In this document: piece after piece, positions 35,387 to 61,865 of the stretch
Position numbering within the stretch: position 1 is the stretch's first letter
How the letters are laid out: each line of letters opens with the position of its first letter
DNA from: Alphaproteobacteria bacterium
Lineage (GTDB): Bacteria > Pseudomonadota > Alphaproteobacteria > SHVV01
Direction: 5' to 3'
Assembly: GCA_016869275.1 (NCBI GenBank)
Contig: VGEO01000002.1
Coordinates: forward strand, 23,491-87,490
Length of the DNA: 64,000 nt
Notes under the pieces: generated by a model
The model's input: only the letters and a program-made list of their open reading frames with translations
The model's database searches: none
Told to the model about the DNA's origin: nothing
Position numbers and translations under genes: made by a program

Positions 35387-36415
35387 TCACGCCGAAACCG
35401 CCGCGCGCTTGTGGTCGAAGTAATCGGCAAACCAGTTCTTCCGCCGCACGCCGGCTTTCTCGAGCACCTTGGCGGTCGCTTCGACCATCGGCGGCGGCCC
35501 GGCGATGTAGACGCGGACGTTCCGGCCCGGAGCGAGGTCGGCGGCGAGCGCGTCGGATACAAACCCGGCGCGGCGGCTCTTGACGGCCTTCGCCTCGGAC
35601 AACGCGAGCGTGAACTTGAAGTTCGGAAACTTCGCCGCCAGGCCGCGGAAGTGATCCTCGAGGTAAATGTCGCGCTCGGCGCGAACCCCGAAGTAGAGCT
35701 CGAGCGGTTGGCGCACACCGGCGGTCAAAGCCATGTCGATGATCGACTTGATCGGTGCGATGCCGGTGCCGCCGGCGACGGCGATGATCTCGGTGCCGTG
35801 GTACTCGCGAAAGAACGCGTTCCCGTAAGGCCCTTTTACCGTGGCGGTCATCCCGATGCGGAGTTTTTTCGCGACAAACCCGGCGATGTCGCTGCCCGGT
35901 ACGCAGCGGATGTGAAAGTCGAGCGTCGGATCGCCAGGCCGATTGGCCATCGACAGATCGCGCGCATCGAGGCCATCGAACGCCACGCGCGCGTATTGGC
36001 CGGCCGTGAATACGAACGGTCCGCCGGCGACGATCGCCAGCTTGACGATGACGATATCGTGGGTAGCGGGCAGGATCGCCGCGACCCGGCAGGGGAATTC
36101 GCGCGCGATGTTGGCGAAGCGCGGCACCACGTCGCGCGGAATCAGCGCGACGGTGCAATCGCTCGTCAGACGCGCGCGGCAGGCGAGGAAACGGCCGAGA
36201 CCGCGTTCTTCGTCGCTACAGGCGACTTGGGTGTGGCTGTCATGGTCGATGGTGCCGGCGACCAGGATCGACTTGCACGATCCGCACACGCCGGTCTTGC
36301 AGTAGCGCGGATAGCTGATGCCGGCATCGAGCGCGGCGTCGAGCACGAATTGATCGGCCGGCATGGCGAAGCTCGCACCGGTCTGATCGATGGTGACGGT
36401 GTGGAATTTGGGCAC
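35387..36415 (-). CDS. 2Fe-2S ferredoxin/FAD oxidoreductase
   Basis: 342-residue single-chain electron-transfer protein of the kind that feeds oxygenases (CDP-6-deoxy-glucoseen reductase / aromatic-dioxygenase reductase type). The plant-type ferredoxin domain ligands are Cys39, Cys44, Cys47 and Cys79 (CKTGVCGSC...LAC). It is followed by an FAD domain (FVFTAGQYARVAF, RDLSMANRPG) and an NAD domain (IIAVAGGTGIAPIKSII, VYIAGPPPMVEAT). The Rieske oxygenase in the tRNA island, 20 kb away, has no reductase of its own. This protein could serve it, but that is speculative. Confidence 0.9.
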   Translation of the reverse strand: MPKFHTVTIDQTGASFAMPADQFVLDAALDAGISYPRYCKTGVCGSCKSILVAGTIDHDSHTQVACSDEERGLGRFLACRARLTSDCTVALIPRDVVPRFANIAREFPCRVAAILPATHDIVIVKLAIVAGGPFVFTAGQYARVAFDGLDARDLSMANRPGDPTLDFHIRCVPGSDIAGFVAKKLRIGMTATVKGPYGNAFFREYHGTEIIAVAGGTGIAPIKSIIDMALTAGVRQPLELYFGVRAERDIYLEDHFRGLAAKFPNFKFTLALSEAKAVKSRRAGFVSDALAADLAPGRNVRVYIAGPPPMVEATAKVLEKAGVRRKNWFADYFDHKRAAVSA

Positions 36416-50302: not shown

Positions 50303-51391
50303 CTATTTCCGCTTCACCCCCATGGTCGGACCCTGGCCCTTCTTCCATTTGGCGAGCGAGGCGTCGGTCGCTTTGGAAGACGACAGCCCCGGGCGATCGG
50401 AGCGGAACCACGTGAACGTCGCCGGGTGGAAGAGCTCTTCCTTTTTCCATAGTTTCTTCGACAAGCCCTGCTCGTAGCTCCAGCGGATCTGGGCGTCGAT
50501 GGTCTTGACGTTCCGCTCGATCCCGTAGGGCCAATAGTCCTCGCCCATCGCCGCCATCGTCGCTTCCGCCTCGTAAGCCAGCCACGGCAGCATGGTGACG
50601 TAGGCGGTGACCTCGGTCAGGTGCGGCTGGGTCAGCGCCTTGGCTTCCTCGAACGCCTTCATGATCGCGCGCGGCAACCATGGGTACTGCTCGGCTAGGC
50701 TCTTGCGCATGCCGATCAGGTGCATGATGTGGAAGATGCCGGTCTTCTTGAAGTAGGCCATCTCGGCCTCGCGCGGGTTCGCGAACAGGCGCGCAATTTT
50801 GGGGCGCTTCTCGCGCCAGCAGAGCGGCGTCTGCGCGGTGAAGATCGCGTCGATTTCGCCGTCGGCGAGCATGGCTGAGAGCGTCTGCCCCGGCTTGATC
50901 GGTTCGATCTCGACGCCCTTGGGCGGCTCCTGCGGCACGTAGTCGAGGAACTCGGGCACGTCGAGCCCGCCGATCCGCCATTTCAGGTGCTGCGGCTTGA
51001 CGCCGTATTCGTCGGAGAGCGTGCCGCGGATGCAAAGCCCGCGCGTCAGCTGATAGTTGGGCGCGCCGACGATCTTGCCCTTCAAGTCCTCGGGCCGTTT
51101 GATGCCGCGGTCGGTGCGGATGAAGATGCCCGAGTGCGCGAACACGCGCGAGATCGGGATCGGCAGCGCGATATACGGAAAGTCGATGTTGGTGCGCGCC
51201 AGCATGTAGGACGAGAACGACATCTCCGAGACATCGAACTCCTGGTAGGTGAAGAGTCGGAAGAACGTCTCCTCGGGCCGGGTGGTGATGTAGGTGACGT
51301 CGCAGCCTTCGACCGGCACGGTGCCGTCCTTGATCGGCCGGATGCGGTCGTAGTCCCACGAGGCGATGGTGATCGGCAGTTTCTTCGACAT
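50303..51391 (-). CDS. ABC substrate-binding-like / 4,5-dihydroxyphthalate decarboxylase family protein
   Basis: 362 residues from ATG 51391 (MSKKLPITIASWDYDRIRPI); the track start is a shadow extension. No signal peptide is present. YITTRPEETFFRLFTYQEFDVSEMSFSSYML and FPYIALPIPISRVFAHSGIFIRTDRGIKRPEDLKG are hallmarks of the 4,5-dihydroxyphthalate decarboxylase group. That group has the fold of periplasmic binding proteins. Lack of a leader suggests a cytoplasmic enzyme, but uncharacterised members are widespread. It is next to an ABC transporter, and a Rieske-oxygenase cassette lies beyond the tRNA. Confidence 0.82.
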   Translation of the reverse strand: MSKKLPITIASWDYDRIRPIKDGTVPVEGCDVTYITTRPEETFFRLFTYQEFDVSEMSFSSYMLARTNIDFPYIALPIPISRVFAHSGIFIRTDRGIKRPEDLKGKIVGAPNYQLTRGLCIRGTLSDEYGVKPQHLKWRIGGLDVPEFLDYVPQEPPKGVEIEPIKPGQTLSAMLADGEIDAIFTAQTPLCWREKRPKIARLFANPREAEMAYFKKTGIFHIMHLIGMRKSLAEQYPWLPRAIMKAFEEAKALTQPHLTEVTAYVTMLPWLAYEAEATMAAMGEDYWPYGIERNVKTIDAQIRWSYEQGLSKKLWKKEELFHPATFTWFRSDRPGLSSSKATDASLAKWKKGQGPTMGVKRK

Positions 51392-51477
51392 GGTTTTGCT
51401 TGAGCTTTCAGAGAAAAGGGGACCTCGCCCGTCGCGGCGCGTCGGGCGAGGTCCGGTGGAACAGGGTCGGCCGGCGG

Positions 51478-52476
51478 TTACTTGTTGTACTTGCCGATCT
51501 TCTTGAGCGCGGCGTCGACGAAGCTCGCGTCCCACAGCTTTTCGGCCGGGATCTTGACCTGATCCTTGTCGAGCTGCATGGCGAGCTCGACCGTGTAGGC
51601 GGTCGCCTTCATCTCGACGCCGCCGTCGGTGCCGAAGCCCTTCGACTTCGCGAACCAGGCGACCGAACGCTCGACCACGCCCTTGTCTTCCTCGGGCGAG
51701 ACCTTGGAATAGATCGCCGCCGTCTCCTTCGGGTTCTCGGTCGCGAAGCGGGCGCCGCGGAGCGACAGCTCGGTGAACTTCTGCAGCGCCGCCGCCTTGT
51801 CCTTGGCCGACTTGGGCGTGGCGATGATCCAGGCGAACGAGATGTCGGGCAGGATCTCGGGCACGACATAGAGCGTGTGCAGGTTGGGGTCGCTCGTGAG
51901 CGCCTCGGCGTAGTTGACGTTCAGGATCGTCGCCTCGACCTGGCCGGTTTTCAGCGCTTGCAGCCGTTTCTCGTTGCCGCCGATCGCGACCATCTTGGCC
52001 TTGGCCGGATCGAAGCCCTTGGCTTGGAGGGTGAGCTTCACGATCGCTTCCGACAGGCTGTTCGGCGCCGAGATCGCGACCTTCTTGTCGGCGAAGTCGG
52101 CGGTCTTGGTGATCGCGCTCTTCTGCGCCAGCACGAAATAGTCGGTCTTGGGCTGCCACGAAAAGATCGCCTTGACGTCGGTGCCCTTGCCGACCACCGA
52201 GATCACCGAGAACGAGCCGGTCCAGGCGGCATCGGTATCGCCGGCGACCAGCGAGCGCACGGCGTTGGCATCGCCGGTGACGCGCTTCTCCTCGATCGCG
52301 AGCCCGGCCTCCTTGGCCCAGCCCTTTTCGCGCGCCACGATCCACGGAATCTCGGCCATGGTCGCGAACGGCGTGCCGATCATCAGCCGCAGCTGGTCTT
52401 GGGCCTGGGCGGCGGTCGCCGCGGTCAACGCACCCGCCGCCACTGCCAGTGTCTTCAACACGTGACGAAGCTTCAT
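51478..52476 (-). CDS. NitT/TauT-type ABC substrate-binding protein
   Basis: 332-residue periplasmic protein with signal peptide MKLRHVLKTLAVAAGALTAA and cleavage after AQA. The mature part begins QDQLRLMIGTPFATMAEIPWIVAREKGWAKEAGL, followed by DANAVRSLVAGDTDAAWTG, the NMT1/SsuA-TauA pattern. The ligand is probably an organosulfonate, an aromatic acid or similar small anion (inference). It precedes the dihydroxyphthalate-decarboxylase-like gene by 86 bases and follows the permease gene by 22 bases. Confidence 0.9.
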   Translation of the reverse strand: MKLRHVLKTLAVAAGALTAATAAQAQDQLRLMIGTPFATMAEIPWIVAREKGWAKEAGLAIEEKRVTGDANAVRSLVAGDTDAAWTGSFSVISVVGKGTDVKAIFSWQPKTDYFVLAQKSAITKTADFADKKVAISAPNSLSEAIVKLTLQAKGFDPAKAKMVAIGGNEKRLQALKTGQVEATILNVNYAEALTSDPNLHTLYVVPEILPDISFAWIIATPKSAKDKAAALQKFTELSLRGARFATENPKETAAIYSKVSPEEDKGVVERSVAWFAKSKGFGTDGGVEMKATAYTVELAMQLDKDQVKIPAEKLWDASFVDAALKKIGKYNK

Positions 52477-52498
52477 ACCTACCTCCTGAAATTGCTGA

Positions 52499-53332
52499 TT
52501 ACTCGAGACGTTCGGTTGTTTTCCACGGCGCCAACTTGGTCTCGAGATACATGACGCCGCGCACCAACAAGAATCCGAGGATCGCGAGCTCGAACAGTGG
52601 TACCAGGAGTTTGTCGGTCGCGAACACGTTGGAATAGACCAGGATCAGGCCGCCCAAGCCGCCGACGGTGGTGAAGAATTCGGCGATCACCATGCCGACC
52701 AGGCCGAGGCCCACGCCCATGCGGATGCCGGCCATGATGAAGGGGAGCGCGGCCGGCAGCACGATCATCCGCATCATCTGCCACTCCGAGCAGCAGAACG
52801 ACTGCGCGACCTCGCCGTACTTGGCCGAGATGTTGCGCACGCCAGCATAGGTGTTCATCAGGATCGGGAAGATCGCGAACGTCACCACCAGCGCGACCTT
52901 GGCTTTGAACTCGAGCCCGAACCACAACATGATCATCGGCACCAGCGCGACGCGGGGCGTCACGTAGATCGCCTCGACGTAAAGGTCGATCGAGTGCTCG
53001 ACCGTGCGGAAGCGGCCCATCAGGAGCCCGATCGCGACTCCGCCGACCAGCGAGATCGCGAAGCCGACGAGGAACGAGCGGAGCGAATCGATCGAGGCGG
53101 CCACGAGCTCGCCCGAGAGGATGATCTTCCACGCCGCCAGCGCGGTCGCGCTCGGGTAGGAGAAGAAGATCGGGTCGATCTGGCGGCCGTAGATTTCCCA
53201 GGCGATGAAGACGACGATCATCGAGATCGTGCGGGTCGCATAGGCCGGGAACGGCTTCTTGACGCGCGGCGCCGGCGGCGCGGCGGACGGCCGCGCGTTC
53301 GCGCGTTCGGCGGCGGAGACCTCGGTCGCCAT
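52499..53332 (-). CDS. NitT/TauT-type ABC permease
   Basis: 277 residues from ATG 53332 (MATEVSAAERANARPSAAPP). The track start 20 codons upstream lies near no ribosome-binding site, whereas GGAGGAC sits six bases before 53332. Six membrane helices are expected. The EAA loop is KYGEVAQSFCCSEWQMMRMIVLPAALPFIMAGIRMG. The permease family is that of SsuC/TauC. No ATPase gene is present next to it in the window, so the importer must borrow one or the gene lies elsewhere. Confidence 0.92.
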   Translation of the reverse strand: MATEVSAAERANARPSAAPPAPRVKKPFPAYATRTISMIVVFIAWEIYGRQIDPIFFSYPSATALAAWKIILSGELVAASIDSLRSFLVGFAISLVGGVAIGLLMGRFRTVEHSIDLYVEAIYVTPRVALVPMIMLWFGLEFKAKVALVVTFAIFPILMNTYAGVRNISAKYGEVAQSFCCSEWQMMRMIVLPAALPFIMAGIRMGVGLGLVGMVIAEFFTTVGGLGGLILVYSNVFATDKLLVPLFELAILGFLLVRGVMYLETKLAPWKTTERLE

Positions 53333-53525
53333 TGTCCTCCCCTTGCGATGGCAGTGCGGCGCTTGTCGTCCGCTTGGCCGAAAGCCTATCACGGCCGGCG
53401 AAAGCCCAACATACGCTGCGGCCGCGGCAGTCTCGCTCCGCTCTCGCGACGGCCTCGAAGCCTTGCCAAGGCGGCGCCAATGCCATATTGATCGGGCTTT
53501 CCGCGATGAGCGGCCGCAACGGAGC

Positions 53526-53600
53526 GCGGGCGTAGCTCAGGGGTAGAGCACAACCTTGCCAAGGTTGGGGTCGAGGGTTCGAATCCCTTCGCCCGCTCCA
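53526..53600 (+). tRNA. tRNA-Gly (GCC anticodon)
   Basis: Acceptor GCGGGCG pairs with CGCCCGC, followed by discriminator T and an encoded CCA. The D-arm GCTCAGGGGTAGAGC is canonical. The anticodon arm CAACC-TTGCCAA-GGTTG carries anticodon GCC (53558-53560), which reads GGC/GGU glycine codons. The T-arm GAGGG-TTCGAAT-CCCTT completes the cloverleaf. Its 3' end is the core of a direct repeat found again at 54643. Confidence 0.97.
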
Positions 53601-53607
53601 GTTTCAC
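53569..53607 (+). repeat. 39-bp direct repeat A (tRNA-Gly 3' end; att-like)
   Basis: This segment begins GGTCGAGGGTTCGAATCCCT, covers the T-arm and acceptor end of the tRNA gene and continues seven bases beyond it (GTTTCAC). It is identical over all 39 bases to 54643-54681. This is the pattern left by site-specific integration at a tRNA 3' end. Confidence 0.95.
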
Positions 53608-53853
53608 AGAATCGCAAGAGTGTCGACGGGACGCGGGTTTCCTACGCGTTCGCGGGCTCACGATTGACGTGAACGAGGCAGGAACGAAGTGGCCGAGAAA
53701 ACCCCGCGTTACCTGGTGGTTACAAGTCGAGGCGGATGACAGCCTACGGTTTCGCGCTTGTGACCGAGAGGCCGTCGGCCCAAACCGGTCGGACCCGAAC
53801 GAAGTCGTTTAGATTGTCTCGACGGACCAACATCTGAATTGTGGGGAGAAATG

Positions 53854-54537
53854 ATGTCTCGAGTCTATGTGCCGAGTTCTGGAGTCTATGTGCCGAGTTC
53901 TGGCCCAGAGGCGTGGCGGAGCCTGCTCGCCGATCCGCGGAAACACTGGCGCAAAGGATTCTCCGTTCGCACGCTCGCATGCGCCTGGGAAGCGGCCAAC
54001 GGACTACCATCCGAAATCGCTGCGCTCTTAGGCAAGGACTCGGAGCTACTACTCGCGATTCCAGAGCACAAGGTGCCGTTGCCGGGTGGCACTCGCGAGA
54101 GTCAAACCGATCTATTCGCCTTGGTACGCGCTAAGGGCAGGACAATGACCATCGCGGTAGAAGGCAAGGTCAACGAGCCCTTAGGTCCAACCGTGGCTGA
54201 GTGGTTTGTGAATCCCTCCGCGGGTAAACGCAAGAGAATGTCGTTTCTCTGTTCTACGCTTGGGATCTCTGATCCCGCTCCAAGCGACGTGTACTACCAG
54301 CTGCTCCATAGAACAGCATCGGCGGCGATTGAGGCGAATCGTTTCAAGACCGACGATGTCGCCATGATTGTTCACTCGTTCTCTAGCGAGCACATGTGGT
54401 TTGACGCATTCGCACGCTTTCTCGCGCTCTTTCGTCTCGCCGCGAAACCGGGGCAACTCGTCAGTACGTCCTTGCCGGATGGACGCCGTCTTTACCTCGG
54501 CTGGGCGCGAGGCAATCCGAAGTTTCTTGCGGCGTAA
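53854..54537 (+). CDS. DUF6946-like protein, sole gene of inner island unit
   Basis: 227 residues from ATG 53854 (MSRVYVPSSG), with GGGGAG six bases upstream; the track uses a TTG further up. From memory it resembles the DUF6946 family: WRSLLADPRKHWRKGFSVRTLACAWEAANGLP, LLAIPEHKVPLPGGTRESQTDLFALVRA and VEGKVNEPLGPTVAEWF. The EGK and D-F-A spacing near VEGKVNE is reminiscent of nuclease-fold metal sites, but this is only an impression. Function is unknown. Codon use is visibly less GC-biased than in neighbouring genes, and an N-terminal 21-bp tandem duplication repeats VYVPSSG. Confidence 0.8.
   Translation: MSRVYVPSSGVYVPSSGPEAWRSLLADPRKHWRKGFSVRTLACAWEAANGLPSEIAALLGKDSELLLAIPEHKVPLPGGTRESQTDLFALVRAKGRTMTIAVEGKVNEPLGPTVAEWFVNPSAGKRKRMSFLCSTLGISDPAPSDVYYQLLHRTASAAIEANRFKTDDVAMIVHSFSSEHMWFDAFARFLALFRLAAKPGQLVSTSLPDGRRLYLGWARGNPKFLAA
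53861..53902 (+). repeat. perfect 21-bp tandem duplication in DUF6946-like gene
   Basis: The 21-base unit GAGTCTATGTGCCGAGTTCT plus G occurs twice in a row (53861-53881 and 53882-53902) and duplicates seven residues in frame (VYVPSSG). The two units are identical, so the duplication is recent. Confidence 0.95.
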
Positions 54538-54642: not shown

Positions 54643-54681
54643 GGTCGAGGGTTCGAATCCCTTCGCCCGCTCCAGTTTCAC
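54643..54681 (+). repeat. 39-bp direct repeat B (att-like copy of tRNA-Gly end)
   Basis: Identical over 39 bases to 53569-53607, including the GTTTCAC that follows the tRNA CCA. The 5' half of a tRNA is missing upstream, so this is not a second tRNA gene. It marks the right end of a 1,074-bp unit. Confidence 0.95.
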
Positions 54682-55370: not shown

Positions 55371-55610
55371 GTTATGTTCTTGCAGCGCTTGCCGTTTTGT
55401 TGCTGCTCGTCGCTGCCCACACTCCCGTCAAATGACGAAAAAAGCGTTACTCATGTGTCCGGCACGTTCTATCACCTACCTCTCAGTCTGCTCTCGGAAC
55501 CACCGAAGCGTCGTTACGTCGGCGCGGCTCTTGGTGTCGCCGTCCGCCATGGTCGGATTGACCTCGACCCTGGCTTCAGCCGATCATCGCCGCCCCAGGG
55601 AGGCTTCACC

Positions 55611-56642
55611 ATGAAAACACTCAAGGCGTTTACGACATTCGCGCTCGCGGCTGCCGTTGCGATCGGTGCGACCGCTCCGGTCGGCGCGCAGAGCAGCGCC
55701 GATCTCGTCGCCGCGGCGAAAAAGGAAGGTAAGCTCACCTTCTATACCGAGCAGCCGGTCGAAACGATCACCGGCCTCATCGCCGCGTTCAGCGCCAAGT
55801 ATCCGGGCATCACGATCGACTATTTTCGCGGCCAAACGTCGCAACTGGTGACGCGCTATGAGTCCGAGACCGCCGCCGGGCGGCACATCGTCGACGTCTT
55901 CACCGCGACCGAGCGCCGCGCCAAGTTGATGAAGCCCACCCTGCTCGCCAACTACAAGTCGCCCGAGCTCGCCCGCTACGACGCCGGCGTGCAGCCGACC
56001 CACGGCAATTGGGCCGTCTACTCGCTCAACACGACGTCGTTCGCGTGGAACCCGCGCACCGTGCCGAAGGGCCAGGAGCCAAAGGAGTGGACGGACCTGC
56101 TCGACCCAAAATGGAAAGGTAAGATCGGCATCCAGGATCCGGCGGTCGGCGGCGGCGCCGCCTCGTGGATCGCCACCATGTATGGCGTGTGGGGCGAGGC
56201 GGCGTGGCTCGACTACATGACCAAGTTCGCCGCCCAAAATCTGCTCTACGCCACGCGACCGCAGGTCGAAGAGAAGGTGATCTCGGGCGAGTTGGCGATC
56301 ATCGCGGTCGACTACCCGGACTTCATCGAGCCGCTCAAGGCCAAGGGTGCGCCGATCGAGTGGGGGACGCCGAAGCCGATGATCCGCACCGGTTTGTCGG
56401 TGCAACTCTCGCCGAATGCGCCGAACCCGAACGCCGCCAAGCTGTTCATCAACTTCCTGCTCTCGGAGGACGGACAGCAGACCTTGGCCAAGCTGGGCTC
56501 CATGCCGGCGCTCAAGTCGGCGTGGCCCGCGGTGTTCGACCGCATGAAGACCGCGGAGTTGGTTCCGTCGGCCGACGAACTCGAAGCCCAGAAAGCGGAC
56601 TACTTCACGGCCAAGATCAAGGAGCTGTTCGGCAAACGCTAG
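55611..56642 (+). CDS. extracellular solute-binding protein (Fe3+/AfuA-like)
   Basis: 343 residues from ATG 55611 (MKTLKAFTTFALAAAVAIGA) with CAGGGAGG eight bases upstream; the track start adds 79 unrelated residues. The signal peptide is cleaved after VGAQ. The mature part SADLVAAAKKEGKLTFYTEQPVETITGLIAAF and WTDLLDPKWKGKIGIQDPA matches the iron(III)/putrescine-type binding-protein cluster that also binds organic acids. No permease or ATPase follows. It is placed before a Rieske oxygenase gene with a 68-base gap, suggesting uptake of the substrate of the cassette. Confidence 0.88.
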   Translation: MKTLKAFTTFALAAAVAIGATAPVGAQSSADLVAAAKKEGKLTFYTEQPVETITGLIAAFSAKYPGITIDYFRGQTSQLVTRYESETAAGRHIVDVFTATERRAKLMKPTLLANYKSPELARYDAGVQPTHGNWAVYSLNTTSFAWNPRTVPKGQEPKEWTDLLDPKWKGKIGIQDPAVGGGAASWIATMYGVWGEAAWLDYMTKFAAQNLLYATRPQVEEKVISGELAIIAVDYPDFIEPLKAKGAPIEWGTPKPMIRTGLSVQLSPNAPNPNAAKLFINFLLSEDGQQTLAKLGSMPALKSAWPAVFDRMKTAELVPSADELEAQKADYFTAKIKELFGKR

Positions 56643-56710
56643 TGCCTGGACTCGCAAATCCGAGATACGCCCCACGAACCTATGATAGCGGGTACTAGAG
56701 GCGGTCGGCG

Positions 56711-58054
56711 ATGAACGACGAGCCGCTGCCCGGCCGGCCGTCGTCGATCAAGCGCGCATTCGGCGCTTACGCCAACCGCGAGGTGCCGGCAGAGGACGTG
56801 CGGCTCACCCATGTCGGGCCCGGCACACCGTGCGGCGAGTACCTACGGCGGTTCTGGCAGCCGGTCGGGCACGTCAAAGATTTGCAGGACGTGCCGGTGC
56901 CGATCCGGATCATGGGCGAGGACCTGGTGCTGTTCCGCGACCGTGCCGGCCGCATCGGCCTTCTGCAGCGGCACTGCTGCCACCGCGGCGCTTCGTTGGA
57001 GTTCGGGTTGATCGCCGAGCGCGGCATCCGCTGCTGCTATCACGGCTGGCTGTTCGATGTGGACGGCACGATCCTCGAAACGCCGGCCGAGCCGGCAACC
57101 AGCCACCTCAAAGAATCGCTGTTCCAGGGCGCCTATCCGACGCACGAGCATTGTGGCCTGGTGTTCGCCTACATGGGGCCGTCCGGGCGACCGCCGCCGT
57201 TTCCGCGGCTCGACATGTTCGAGGTACCCGGCTACCGGCTCGAGCCGGGCGATTCCGAGCAGAACATCAAGCCGTGCAACTGGCTGCAGGTGCAGGACAA
57301 CGTGCTCGACATCGGCCACGAGACGTTCCTGCACGCCCGCAGCAGCGGGTTGCAGATCAACGATGCGGGCGGCCGGCCGCTCGCGGCGCTTGCCGATCTG
57401 CCGGAGCTCGATTTTTTCGAGACGCCGATCGGTGTGCTGTGTATGTCGACGCGGCGGGTCGGCGACAGCATTTGGGTGCGCGGCCTCGAGCACATCGCGC
57501 CGAATATCGCGCAGATTCCGCGCACGCCGACGCTGCCGCCGGCCTATGCTCCCGGAACGGATCGGATCACGGTGCGGCCGCGGGCTACGCGCTGGCGCGT
57601 GCCGGTCGACGACCACCACACGCTCGAGCTGTCGTTGGTGAGGGTGCGCGAGGGCGAACCCAACACCTATTCGAAACAAGCAAGCCTCGCCCGTCGCAGC
57701 AACTACGGCGATCGGCCGTACGAGGAGCGGCAGCGCTTCCCCGGCGACTATGATGCGCAGGTAAGCCAACGGCCGATCGCCCGGCATGGCCTCGAACACC
57801 TCGCCTCCACCGACCGCGGCGTGGCGCTGTTTCGGCGTCAGCTTCGCCGCGGCATCGATGCGGTGGCGGAAGGAAAGGAGCCGCCCGAGTCGCTACGAAC
57901 GTTCCCGGCCCGCACCTACGGCTTCGAAACGCTGGTGCGCCACCCGCCCGCCAACGATGCCGCGGCCGACCGGCAGCTCCTACGCGACACGGCCCGTCGC
58001 TTGGCCGAGGAGCGTCTGCGCGGCGAGGCGTCGGACTCGCCGGTGGTCATCTAG
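56711..58054 (+). CDS. Rieske non-heme iron oxygenase, phthalate-dioxygenase-like
   Basis: 447-residue oxygenase alpha subunit. The Rieske centre is complete: Cys89-x-His91 in RHCCHRGAS and Cys108-x2-His111 in RCCYHGW. The mononuclear iron site is in NWLQVQDNVLDIGHETFLH (His203 and His208), with the bridging Asp200. The layout and length match the phthalate 4,5-dioxygenase/Rieske demethylase group. It needs an electron-transfer reductase, which is absent from the cassette; the ferredoxin reductase at 35387 is one candidate. It precedes the hydrolase gene by 18 bases. Confidence 0.93.
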   Translation: MNDEPLPGRPSSIKRAFGAYANREVPAEDVRLTHVGPGTPCGEYLRRFWQPVGHVKDLQDVPVPIRIMGEDLVLFRDRAGRIGLLQRHCCHRGASLEFGLIAERGIRCCYHGWLFDVDGTILETPAEPATSHLKESLFQGAYPTHEHCGLVFAYMGPSGRPPPFPRLDMFEVPGYRLEPGDSEQNIKPCNWLQVQDNVLDIGHETFLHARSSGLQINDAGGRPLAALADLPELDFFETPIGVLCMSTRRVGDSIWVRGLEHIAPNIAQIPRTPTLPPAYAPGTDRITVRPRATRWRVPVDDHHTLELSLVRVREGEPNTYSKQASLARRSNYGDRPYEERQRFPGDYDAQVSQRPIARHGLEHLASTDRGVALFRRQLRRGIDAVAEGKEPPESLRTFPARTYGFETLVRHPPANDAAADRQLLRDTARRLAEERLRGEASDSPVVI

Positions 58055-58072
58055 GCATCCGAGAAGAAACGC

Positions 58073-58945
58073 GTGCGCGTCGAGTTCACCAGCGTCAACG
58101 GCATCCCGACCCGGTTCTACCGCGAAGGCGACGGCTATCCGGTCGTGCTGGTGCACGGCGCCGGCCTCTCGGCTGATTCCTGGATCCGCAATATCGACGC
58201 CCTCGGCAAGCACTTCCGCGTGATCGCGCCCGATACGCTCGGTCACGGCTACACCGGTTCGGGTGGTTACGAATCGGGTCCGCCGCATCCGCACATCGTC
58301 GAGCACCTGGTCGGCCTGGTCGACCAGCTCGGCATCGACCGGTTCTCGATCGTCGGCAGCTCGTTCGGCGCGCTGATGGCGGCGTTGACGTACTTCCGGC
58401 TGCCGCAGCGGGTCGAGAAGCTGGTCGTCATCAGCAGTGCGTCCGCCTTCAACACCGAAGCAGAAGCGCGCGAGCGCCAGCCCAACGCCTACAAGAACGG
58501 GCTCGCCGCGTTCACCAACCCGACGCTGGCTGCGTGCCGCCAACGGCTGGCGAACGTGTTCCACGACGCGAGCAAGATTCCGGAGGAACTGCTGGTCATG
58601 CAGATGACCATGTACGCGATGCCGGGCGCGCTCGAAAGCTACGAACGTCGCTTCAAGGGCATGATGGACATCGAGGCCACCCGCCCGCACCGAATCGTCA
58701 ACCGCGTCGAGCAGATCAAGGTGCCGGCACTGCTGTTGTGGGGCCGGCAGGATCCGCGCGGCATCCTGGCCCGCGCGCAGGAGGCGGTTCGGCGCCTGCC
58801 CAATGGCAAGCTGGTCGTGTTCGACCGCTGCGGCCATCACCCGCACATGGAGTACCCGGACGCGTTCAACGAGCTGGTGCGGCAGTTCATCACCGAGCAG
58901 CCGCTCGCCCATGCCGCACCGCAACTCGAATTCGTGAAGGTCTAG
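58073..58945 (+). CDS. alpha/beta hydrolase (meta-cleavage-hydrolase-like)
   Basis: 290 residues from GTG 58073. Elements are VVLVHGAGLSADSWIRNID (oxyanion HG), the nucleophile elbow GSSFGA with Ser97, Asp in LLLWGRQDPRGI and His in FDRCGHHPHMEYPDAFNELV. This is the pattern of C-C bond hydrolases of the MhpC/BphD group, which act on ring-fission products. With an oxygenase on one side and a VOC protein on the other, this is the expected third enzyme of a ring-opening route (inference). The next gene starts one base after its stop. Confidence 0.9.
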   Translation: MRVEFTSVNGIPTRFYREGDGYPVVLVHGAGLSADSWIRNIDALGKHFRVIAPDTLGHGYTGSGGYESGPPHPHIVEHLVGLVDQLGIDRFSIVGSSFGALMAALTYFRLPQRVEKLVVISSASAFNTEAEARERQPNAYKNGLAAFTNPTLAACRQRLANVFHDASKIPEELLVMQMTMYAMPGALESYERRFKGMMDIEATRPHRIVNRVEQIKVPALLLWGRQDPRGILARAQEAVRRLPNGKLVVFDRCGHHPHMEYPDAFNELVRQFITEQPLAHAAPQLEFVKV

Positions 58946-58946
58946 C

Positions 58947-59906
58947 GTGACCGCAACAACCGAAACCCGAGCCACCGGCGACCGCCACTTTCGCGCCCGT
59001 CGCCTCGCCCACGCCAACCTCTACGTCCGCGACCTCGCCCGCTCGATCGACTTCTACCACCGCGTGGTCGGCCTCGAGCGCACCTACAGCCTGCCGATAC
59101 CGAAGGCCGGGTTCTTGAGCAACGGCGCCTCGCACCACGATATCGGCCTCGTCGAGCTCGGCGGGCCGACCGCCCGCAAGACCGAGCCCGGGCTCAACCA
59201 CTTCGGCTTCGAGCTCGAGAACGAGACCGACCTGGTTGCCGGCTACCGGGCGGCCGTCGGCGCCGGCGTCAATTTTTATCGCACCGTCAACCATCACATC
59301 ACGCATAGCCTTTACGTCTTCGATCCCGACGGAAACTCGAACGAGATCTATGCCGACGTGACCACGGACTGGCGCACCGCGCGCGGGACCACGCCGACGC
59401 AGAAGTGGACGCCGGGCGAAACGCCGCCCTCGCCCGAGCGCAAATACGATCCCGATCCGGTCTACGTCCGCGTCGCCGGCGCAATGTTTCAGCCGCTCCG
59501 CATCACCCACGCGACGGTCGTCGGCAACGATTTCGAAGGCCTGTTCGATCACTACACCAGGGTCGTCGGATTGACCCCGATCGTCGGTGGCCGCGGGGCG
59601 CCGTTTGCCGCGCTCGCCGGCGCCTGCGGCTTCGGCGCCATCAACCTGTTCCGGGCGGTCGATGGCCAGGCCGCCGGCCTGCACCACATCGGATTCGAGA
59701 TGGCAAACGACGCCGATCTCGACGCGGGCCGCCGGAGCTTGCCGCGCACCGGAGCCGCCAAAGAGCGCGACGTCGATCATCCGCTCCGCCGCACCACCTT
59801 CGTTCGCGATCCCGACGGCATGATGATTGCTTTCTACGTCAACCGACCGAACTGGCGCGAGCGGCTGGGCAGCCTGGACGCCGCCACCGCGCTTTGGGTT
59901 GCCTGA
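58947..59906 (+). CDS. two-domain VOC protein, extradiol-dioxygenase-like
   Basis: 319 residues from GTG 58947. The first VOC half has RLAHANLYVRDLARSIDFYHRVVGL and HSLYVFDPDGNSNEIYADV, and the second half has RITHATVVGNDFEGLFDHYTRVVGL, LHHIGFEMANDADL and FVRDPDGMMIAFYVNRPNW. The His/His/Glu metal triad is visible in the first domain (HAN, HSL, NEIY). Such proteins are type I extradiol ring-cleaving dioxygenases or related lyases. It ends the cassette. A tRNA-end remnant begins 26 bases after its stop. Confidence 0.9.
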   Translation: MTATTETRATGDRHFRARRLAHANLYVRDLARSIDFYHRVVGLERTYSLPIPKAGFLSNGASHHDIGLVELGGPTARKTEPGLNHFGFELENETDLVAGYRAAVGAGVNFYRTVNHHITHSLYVFDPDGNSNEIYADVTTDWRTARGTTPTQKWTPGETPPSPERKYDPDPVYVRVAGAMFQPLRITHATVVGNDFEGLFDHYTRVVGLTPIVGGRGAPFAALAGACGFGAINLFRAVDGQAAGLHHIGFEMANDADLDAGRRSLPRTGAAKERDVDHPLRRTTFVRDPDGMMIAFYVNRPNWRERLGSLDAATALWVA

Positions 59907-59931: not shown

Positions 59932-59965
59932 CGCGGGTTCGAATCCCTTCACCCACAATAATTTC
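59932..59965 (+). repeat. degenerate tRNA-3'-end remnant C
   Basis: CGCGGGTTCGAATCCCTTCA and the following bases match repeat A over 34 positions with about eight differences, including an intact T-loop (TTCGAAT). There is no matching 5' half of a tRNA. It probably records an older attachment event. Confidence 0.6.
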
Positions 59966-60371: not shown

Positions 60372-60390
60372 TCGCCCGCTCCGGTTTCAC
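60372..60390 (+). repeat. partial tRNA-end repeat D (right island edge)
   Basis: TCGCCCGCTCCGGTTTCAC matches the last 19 bases of repeat A with one mismatch (A to G). It lies 6.8 kb from the tRNA and 80 bases upstream of an intact core-type gene. Confidence 0.75.
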
Positions 60391-60470
60391 GACAACGCGG
60401 TAAGGTAGCCACCCGGGTGGGTCGGCCGCACGCCGCATCCTCCTCGATTGTCCTTCGAGAAAAAACCGCC

Positions 60471-61865
60471 ATGACTATTTCGCCCGTCCCCCGCTCCGAC
60501 GTCCGCTCGCTGTTGCTGTCGCTCCGCACCTCGCGGCTCGCCGACGAGGCGCGTGCCGCCCGCAATCCGCACCTGCAGGCGGCGCTGGTCGAAGACAAGC
60601 GCATCGGCATGGCGATCGCCGTGTGGGCGCGCACCGCGGCGCTGGTCGTCATTGCCCTGATGCTGCCGTTCGTCAATCCGCGCTGGGAGGTTCTTTTCTA
60701 CGAGGCGTTGGTCGGGGCGTTCGTTGCGCTCGGCTGGTGGCAGCTCCGCGTCGCCCGCGTCGGCCAGTCGCGCGCCGAGCTCCTGCTCATCATCGCCGAT
60801 CTCCTGTTGCTCGCGCTCACCCTGCTCGTGCCCAATCCATTTGTCGGCGAGCCGTGGCCGACCGCGATGCAATACCGCTGGAACGGGTTCATCTACTTCT
60901 TCGTTCTTCTCGCCGCCGCGACCTTGGCCTATTCGTGGCGGACGGTGGCCACGATCGGGCTGTGGACGGCGCTCGCCTGGCTGATCGCCGCCGGCCTGCT
61001 CGCCGCCTTCGGGACGACGCTCCCCGGCATCTCGGAGGCCGTCGCCGCGGCGCTGCCGGCGTTCGAGCGCATCCGCCTGTTCCTCGACCCCAACGCGATC
61101 ATGTTCGAGTTCCGGGTCCAGGAAGCGGTCGTGTTCTTCCTGGTGGCGACGATCCTCGCGCTCAAGAGCCGGCGCGCGAACCAGCTCTTGTTCGATCAGG
61201 CCGAGCTCGCCGCCGAGCGCGCCAATCTCTCGCGCTACTTCCCGCCGACGCTGGTCGATGAGCTGGCGCAGAAGGCCAAGCCGTTCGGCGACGTGCGTTC
61301 GCAGGAGATCGCCGTCTTGTTCGCCGACATCGTCGGCTTCACCCGCTTCGCCGAAAGCCATCCGCCAGCCGAGGTGGTGGGCGTGCTCAGGCGCTACCAC
61401 GCGCTCCTCGAGCACGCCGTCTTCGCCAACCACGGCACCCTCGACAAGTTTCTGGGCGATGGCGTGATGACGACGTTCGGGACGCCGACGCCGACCGCGA
61501 ACGATGCCGCGAACGCGGTGCAGTGCGGGCTCGACATTCTGCGCGCGGTCGATGCCTGGAACGCCGAGCGCCAAGCGGCCGGCCAGCCGCCGATCCGGGT
61601 TTCGATCGGGCTCCACTACGGGCCGGCGATCCTGGGCGACATCGGCTCCGAGCGCCGGCTCGAATTCGCGACGCTCGGCGACACCGTCAACGTCGCGAGT
61701 CGGCTCGAGGGCAAGACCCGCGCGCTCGATTGCCGGTTGCTCGCGAGCGAAGCACTGATCGGGCGCCTGGGCGAGGGGCGCGCGCGCCTGACGGCGACGA
61801 TGAAGCCGAGCCCCGGCTTGCGGCTCCGCGGCCGCGCCCTGCCGCTCGACGCGTGGGCGGTTTGA
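60471..61865 (+). CDS. adenylate/guanylate cyclase with N-terminal membrane domain
   Basis: 464 residues from ATG 60471 (MTISPVPRSDVRSLLLSLRTS); the track start 18 codons upstream lies within the island edge. Six hydrophobic helices occupy about residues 40-225 (AVWARTAALVVIALMLPFV, FYEALVGAFVALGWWQL). A class III cyclase domain follows: metal Asp in FADIVGFTRF near residue 285, DKFLGDGVMTTFG near 328, and LGDTVNVASRLE with the transition-state Asn/Arg. It makes cAMP or cGMP in response to a membrane-sensed cue. A relative at 18712 is dead. A cNMP-binding protein gene is at 33020. Confidence 0.93.
   Translation: MTISPVPRSDVRSLLLSLRTSRLADEARAARNPHLQAALVEDKRIGMAIAVWARTAALVVIALMLPFVNPRWEVLFYEALVGAFVALGWWQLRVARVGQSRAELLLIIADLLLLALTLLVPNPFVGEPWPTAMQYRWNGFIYFFVLLAAATLAYSWRTVATIGLWTALAWLIAAGLLAAFGTTLPGISEAVAAALPAFERIRLFLDPNAIMFEFRVQEAVVFFLVATILALKSRRANQLLFDQAELAAERANLSRYFPPTLVDELAQKAKPFGDVRSQEIAVLFADIVGFTRFAESHPPAEVVGVLRRYHALLEHAVFANHGTLDKFLGDGVMTTFGTPTPTANDAANAVQCGLDILRAVDAWNAERQAAGQPPIRVSIGLHYGPAILGDIGSERRLEFATLGDTVNVASRLEGKTRALDCRLLASEALIGRLGEGRARLTATMKPSPGLRLRGRALPLDAWAV

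Follow-up and report, generated by a model that had tools for sequence, protein, structure and literature searches.

A Rieske oxygenase, hydrolase and reversed-order extradiol-type gene set as a probable aromatic catabolic cassette in an alphaproteobacterial genome

Do four adjacent genes that could bind, oxygenate, open and hydrolyse an aromatic compound belong to one route? The question is raised by positions 55611–59906 of the window, the 64,000-nucleotide stretch of DNA analyzed here (C2:23491–87490 of genome G000; G001 and G002 are sister genomes of the same genus). All four genes named in the original prediction were found head to tail on the plus strand, and recomputing gave the same intergenic gaps of 68, 18 and 1 bases. 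The first gene (55611–56642) encodes a 343-residue periplasmic solute-binding protein of the Fbp/2-aminoethylphosphonate type (SBP_bac_8/SBP_bac_6). The list of open reading frames begins it upstream at 55374, but the ATG at 55611 was taken as the start because it comes with a signal peptide and with GGGAGG, which resembles a ribosome site. It is followed by a phthalate 4,5-dioxygenase-like Rieske oxygenase alpha subunit of 447 residues (56711–58054), a 290-residue alpha/beta hydrolase related to meta-cleavage product hydrolases (58073–58945) and a 319-residue two-domain VOC protein that resembles a type I extradiol dioxygenase of reversed domain order (58947–59906), the last two with GTG starts. 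Pfam matched the four proteins to SBP_bac_8, Rieske, Abhydrolase_1 and Glyoxalase (two stretches), and the codon composition, with a GC3 of 0.86–0.88, is consistent with real genes. We consider it probable that the locus is a compact aromatic catabolic cassette in which the binding protein, the Rieske protein, the extradiol-type VOC protein and the hydrolase act as one route.

The association of the three enzymes exceeds chance, as the set recurs together in G590, G672 and G001. In G590, which belongs to another family, the order Rieske–hydrolase–VOC is that of the window, and its Rieske protein matches that of the cassette at 57%. G672, a second genome, has the order hydrolase–VOC–RidA–Rieske, G001 carries a Rieske–VOC pair with a divergent hydrolase, and G452 has a hydrolase–VOC pair. 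In the trees of the Rieske and VOC proteins alike, the shortest paths from the window's protein led to those of G590 and G672, with moderate support around the window row. In the window's own genome, about 15 kb of contig C8 hold every one of the four gene types, including paralogs of the Rieske protein (54%), the binding protein (45%) and the VOC protein (45%) as well as two hydrolases. A Rieske gene lay within 2 kb of 5 of 16 intact VOC paralogs, the five being counted by eye, against 1.9 expected (P about 0.03), and many VOC copies therefore stand with other partners. Large genes near VOC paralogs that have no Rieske neighbor were considered as flavin hydroxylases and ruled out as unrelated. 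RidA-like genes adjoin reversed-order VOC and Rieske genes in three loci (L150 8366–8836, L072 14184–14648 and L091 10018–10563), which suggests enamine or 2-aminomuconate-type intermediates in those versions.

The Rieske protein retains both an intact cluster motif, CxH(n)CxxH from residue 89, and an intact iron motif of the form D-xx-H-xxxx-H (NVLDIGHETFLH, from residue 197). Its nearest solved structures are phthalate 4,5-dioxygenase-like (7fhr, 7fjl and 9ina) and share its length, alpha-only form and Rieske domain, although the alignment is mostly limited to the N-terminal half. Demethylase-like and aliphatic hydroxylase enzymes are also among its relatives. The cassette encodes no Rieske beta subunit, and the small genes beside VOC and Rieske genes in related loci, considered for this role, were ruled out by their RidA-like Pfam matches. 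Since no diol dehydrogenase was seen beside the window, G590, G672 or G001 copies, hydroxylation or demethylation straight to a catechol is favored, and classic dihydroxylation by this enzyme is less likely.

The cassette itself lacks a reductase, a dehydrogenase and a permease, as originally predicted, with candidates found elsewhere in the genome. For the reductase, the statement does not extend to the window, in which a BenC-like [2Fe-2S]-flavin-NAD reductase is encoded at 35387–36415 on the minus strand, near housekeeping genes. The genome search proposed with the original prediction returned three FNR-type candidates by NAD_binding_1 matches, a count that covers the whole genome and leaves Pyr_redox-type reductases aside: this BenC-like protein, a fusion protein on contig C48 and one weak match. 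We infer that the BenC-like protein may serve as the electron-transfer partner of the cassette Rieske protein. The C48 fusion (L089 243–4094) has 1284 residues and consists of a PDR-type reductase (FAD, NAD and Fer2) together with a molybdopterin-binding domain; it adjoins two Rieske genes whose products are 52–54% identical to that of the window.

The hydrolase carries a Ser97, Asp227 and His255 triad that is invariant in 21/21 relatives. Its best NCBIfam model was HsaD, at 108 bits against a cut-off of 400, and its best PDB matches were meta-cleavage hydrolases of the CumD and CarC type. In meta-cleavage hydrolases such as BphD, a lid arginine (R190) binds the dienoate. Here this position holds Gln177 (19/21 relatives) where the compared meta-cleavage hydrolases have arginine, and His256 replaces the tryptophan that follows their catalytic histidine, the tryptophan being kept only in L148/L149. 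These two replacements make the C–C step less sure, and from its sequence C–C hydrolysis by this enzyme is likely but not secure. Cumene, biphenyl, carbazole and steroid meta-cleavage operons combine the same three kinds of activity (oxygenase, extradiol dioxygenase and C–C hydrolase). However, the cassette differs from them in its alpha-only Rieske protein, in the lack of a ferredoxin, reductase and diol dehydrogenase, in a hydrolase without the arginine and in a reversed extradiol-type enzyme.

These features bear on an unlikely alternative, in which the hydrolase acts first, on an ester of, for example, the monoalkyl phthalate type, and so releases an aromatic acid as the substrate of the Rieske and extradiol enzymes. 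The hydrolase counts monoalkyl phthalate hydrolases among its relatives, the glutamine in place of arginine would fit such a role, and phthalate 4,5-dioxygenase is the closest PDB match to the Rieske protein. Nevertheless, meta-cleavage hydrolases outscored phthalate ester hydrolases by 142 to 104 bits, and the diol dehydrogenase and decarboxylase are absent from the cassette. The proposed three-gene sequence of oxygenation, ring cleavage and hydrolysis thus stands in part: the conserved set and the full extradiol active site of the VOC protein support it, whereas the hydrolase lacks the arginine and classic dihydroxylation has become the less likely mode.

Type I extradiol dioxygenases are two-domain proteins in which the first domain is metal-free. 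The VOC protein shows the opposite arrangement, with a catalytic domain at residues 19–140 and a metal-free domain at about 185–300. When 25 relatives, drawn from the window's genome and two congeneric ones, were combined into a profile, it aligned to XylE (1mpy) twice and in swapped order, profile positions 7–142 matching the metal domain (XylE 150–273) and positions 191–305 the metal-free domain (XylE 9–124). The active-site residues of XylE, H153, H199, H214, H246, Y255 and E265, correspond by alignment to H22, H64, H85, H116, Y123 and E133. The 2-His-1-carboxylate metal ligands are well kept in the family, with both histidines (H22 and H85) in 25/25 members and E133 in 22/25, the other three having glutamine. 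The second-sphere residues H64, H116 and Y123 are present in 25/25, 22/25 and 24/25, respectively. The three paralogs with glutamine for glutamate are also those without histidine at 116, and judged by these substitutions they may be inactive or altered. The metal domain is the N-terminal one, and in the C-terminal domain the glutamate position is occupied by Ala295. An AlphaFold model (pLDDT 92) had XylE as its best fold match, and the best NCBIfam models were catechol 2,3-dioxygenase and HpaD, both below cut-off.

The domain order was compared with that of solved structures using a profile of the catalytic domain only. All clear two-domain matches in the PDB fell in the C-terminal half (XylE, C23O64 and 3vb0), N-terminal matches in HPCD and LapB were short fragments only, and reversed order was found in none of the clear two-domain matches. 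As an internal control, a Streptomyces plasmid protein of classical order matched the VOC profile swapped. In a 2019 structure paper, metal binding or catalysis was considered unlikely in the N-terminal domains of the enzymes characterized to date (PMC6880040). No description of a reversed-order extradiol enzyme was found in the literature searched, which took in few subscription journals. On these sequence comparisons, the VOC protein is a type I extradiol dioxygenase whose two domains stand in reversed order: it shares two VOC domains and the six active-site residues with XylE, BphC, HsaC and HPCD, and differs from them in its N-terminal catalytic domain.

The conservation of the active site suggests that the VOC protein opens a catechol ring. 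The original prediction depended on a metal in this protein, and the full extradiol active site is present in its sequence. A different activity, such as that of an isomerase, thiol transferase or binding protein, with the set forming a demethylation or detoxification route, appears improbable: the fold is common to glyoxalase I and Fos proteins, which occur among the weaker matches, but extradiol dioxygenases are the best matches by both sequence and fold, and the equivalents of XylE H199, H246 and Y255 are conserved across the family together with the metal ligands.

Least probable of all is that the Rieske protein acts on an aliphatic or tertiary-alcohol compound beside coincidental neighbors, since, although an aliphatic substrate could be envisaged from its 43% identity to a relative on the M. 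petroleiphilum PM1 plasmid that adjoins a PDR/VanB reductase gene and looks like the tert-alcohol hydroxylase MdpJ, the make-up of the cassette is conserved across families and the phylogeny proposed earlier for the Rieske alpha subunit, in which G590 and G672 are nearest, places the PM1 protein in another clade than the cassette proteins.

The preferred reading of a single aromatic route would proceed as follows. The periplasmic binding protein would capture the substrate and deliver it to a permease encoded elsewhere. The alpha-only Rieske protein, fed by a reductase also encoded elsewhere, would then hydroxylate or demethylate the substrate to a catechol, most likely in a monooxygenase mode, and the reversed-order VOC enzyme would open the ring. 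Finally, the hydrolase would split the ring-cleavage product, or may act on an ester or lactone, either ahead of ring opening or following it. The cassette would be one of many oxygenase and ring-cleavage sets in a Rieske-expanded genome, located at a variable tRNA-Gly site.

For transport, seven further full-length paralogs of the binding protein (40–63%) and one weak partial match were identified in the genome. One paralog, on contig C35, has a fused permease with two stretches nearby, and this is the candidate partner that emerged from the permease search suggested with the original prediction. Another permease candidate, beside a paralog on C4, was ruled out as an amidohydrolase. Within the window, a separate minus-strand region at 50306–53392 encodes an SsuC-like permease together with two binding proteins resembling NMT1/SsuA; no adjoining ATPase gene was seen.

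The placement of the cassette in an island agrees with tRNA-Gly 3′-end repeats on both sides, for which the chance expectation is about zero. A tRNA-Gly (gcc) gene at 53526–53600 on the plus strand forms the left boundary, and an exact 39-bp copy of its 3′ end plus flank (source 53569–53607) is found at 54643–54681 on the same strand. Two degenerate plus-strand copies lie further right, one of the 3′ part just past the VOC stop codon (59936–59956, 2 mismatches in 21) and one of the 3′-end flank before an adenylate cyclase gene (60373–60390, 1 mismatch in 18), such that a DUF6946 gene lies in the first interval between repeats and the cassette in the next. A closed 1.07-kb islet reaching from the tRNA-Gly to the exact repeat, with the cassette outside, was initially considered and was dropped because the two degenerate repeats enclose the cassette. 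The segment 53601–54642 is a minimal islet without an integrase; there was no sign of an integrase and no room for one among the open reading frames of the stretch. The DUF6946 gene (53839–54537), between the two exact repeats, has a GC3 of 0.63 compared with 0.82–0.92 around it and gave no PADLOC match. Only this gene differs in base composition; the GC3 of the cassette is like that of the host, indicating that the cassette, if mobile, has long been at home. Contig C77 of G001 holds a tRNA-Gly fragment and the same adenylate cyclase with other genes between them, which shows the site to be variable, and a Rieske relative lies on the far side of the fragment. The cyclase gene itself (window 60417–61865) is broken by stops in G001 (L169, G001:C77:7932–9295).

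The genome contains 73 Rieske domains in 3.6 Mb, compared with its three NAD_binding_1 matches; most members of the class have a handful of Rieske domains and one other genome has 46. The assembly is fragmented, with 6.5% estimated contamination; however, the expansion is not an artefact of contamination alone, since 32 and 29 such domains occur in G001 and G002, respectively. Such an expansion is known in kind, as SAR202 group VII reaches up to 62 ring-hydroxylating dioxygenase paralogs (PMC6946804). The two share very many alpha-only Rieske paralogs in genomes of 3–4 Mb but differ in lineage, and extradiol enzymes go unmentioned in the text of that study.

Like the reversed domain order, the expansion of the family itself was absent from the original prediction: the window's genome has 17 full-length genes, one of them with stops. 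This decayed paralog (L014/L083, G000:C66:2355–3287) has one TGA and two TAG stops. A single-sequence search (59 relatives, E 1e-20) found copies in two same-genus genomes only, and a phylum-level search of 399 genomes (E 1e-25) found no full homolog beyond the genome itself. The latter understated the spread, as searching 385 genomes of the class with the profile, which is more sensitive, identified full-length copies in six genomes outside the genus (G452, G503, G590, G672, G698 and G742). The other matching genomes of the class carry single-domain VOC relatives, mostly of 150–250 residues, and a search of genome contigs with the VOC protein likewise returned single-domain or fragmentary relatives only.

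Outside the family, no sequences are closer to the catalytic domain than these single-domain extradiol-type proteins. They share its active-site residues almost universally but have no second domain, and their neighbors differ, being binding-protein and FAH genes. Because the catalytic domain is matched far better by them than by XylE, we infer from sequence that the joining of a single-domain enzyme with a metal-free domain would be a simple origin of the reversed protein. More tentatively, and at somewhat less than even confidence, we propose a new reversed-order type I subclass that arose probably by fusion rather than by permutation of a classical enzyme and diversified into 17 copies within one genome. 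Each copy would cleave a different catechol, supplied by one of some 70 Rieske oxygenases with a few reductases in common.

If true, a conserved and expanded reversed branch would mean either that two-domain enzymes originated repeatedly or that they were permuted, and it would open the function of the metal-free domain to testing. A genome so rich in Rieske and ring-cleavage genes marks an uncultured lineage specialized on aromatic carbon, in parallel to SAR202 in the ocean.
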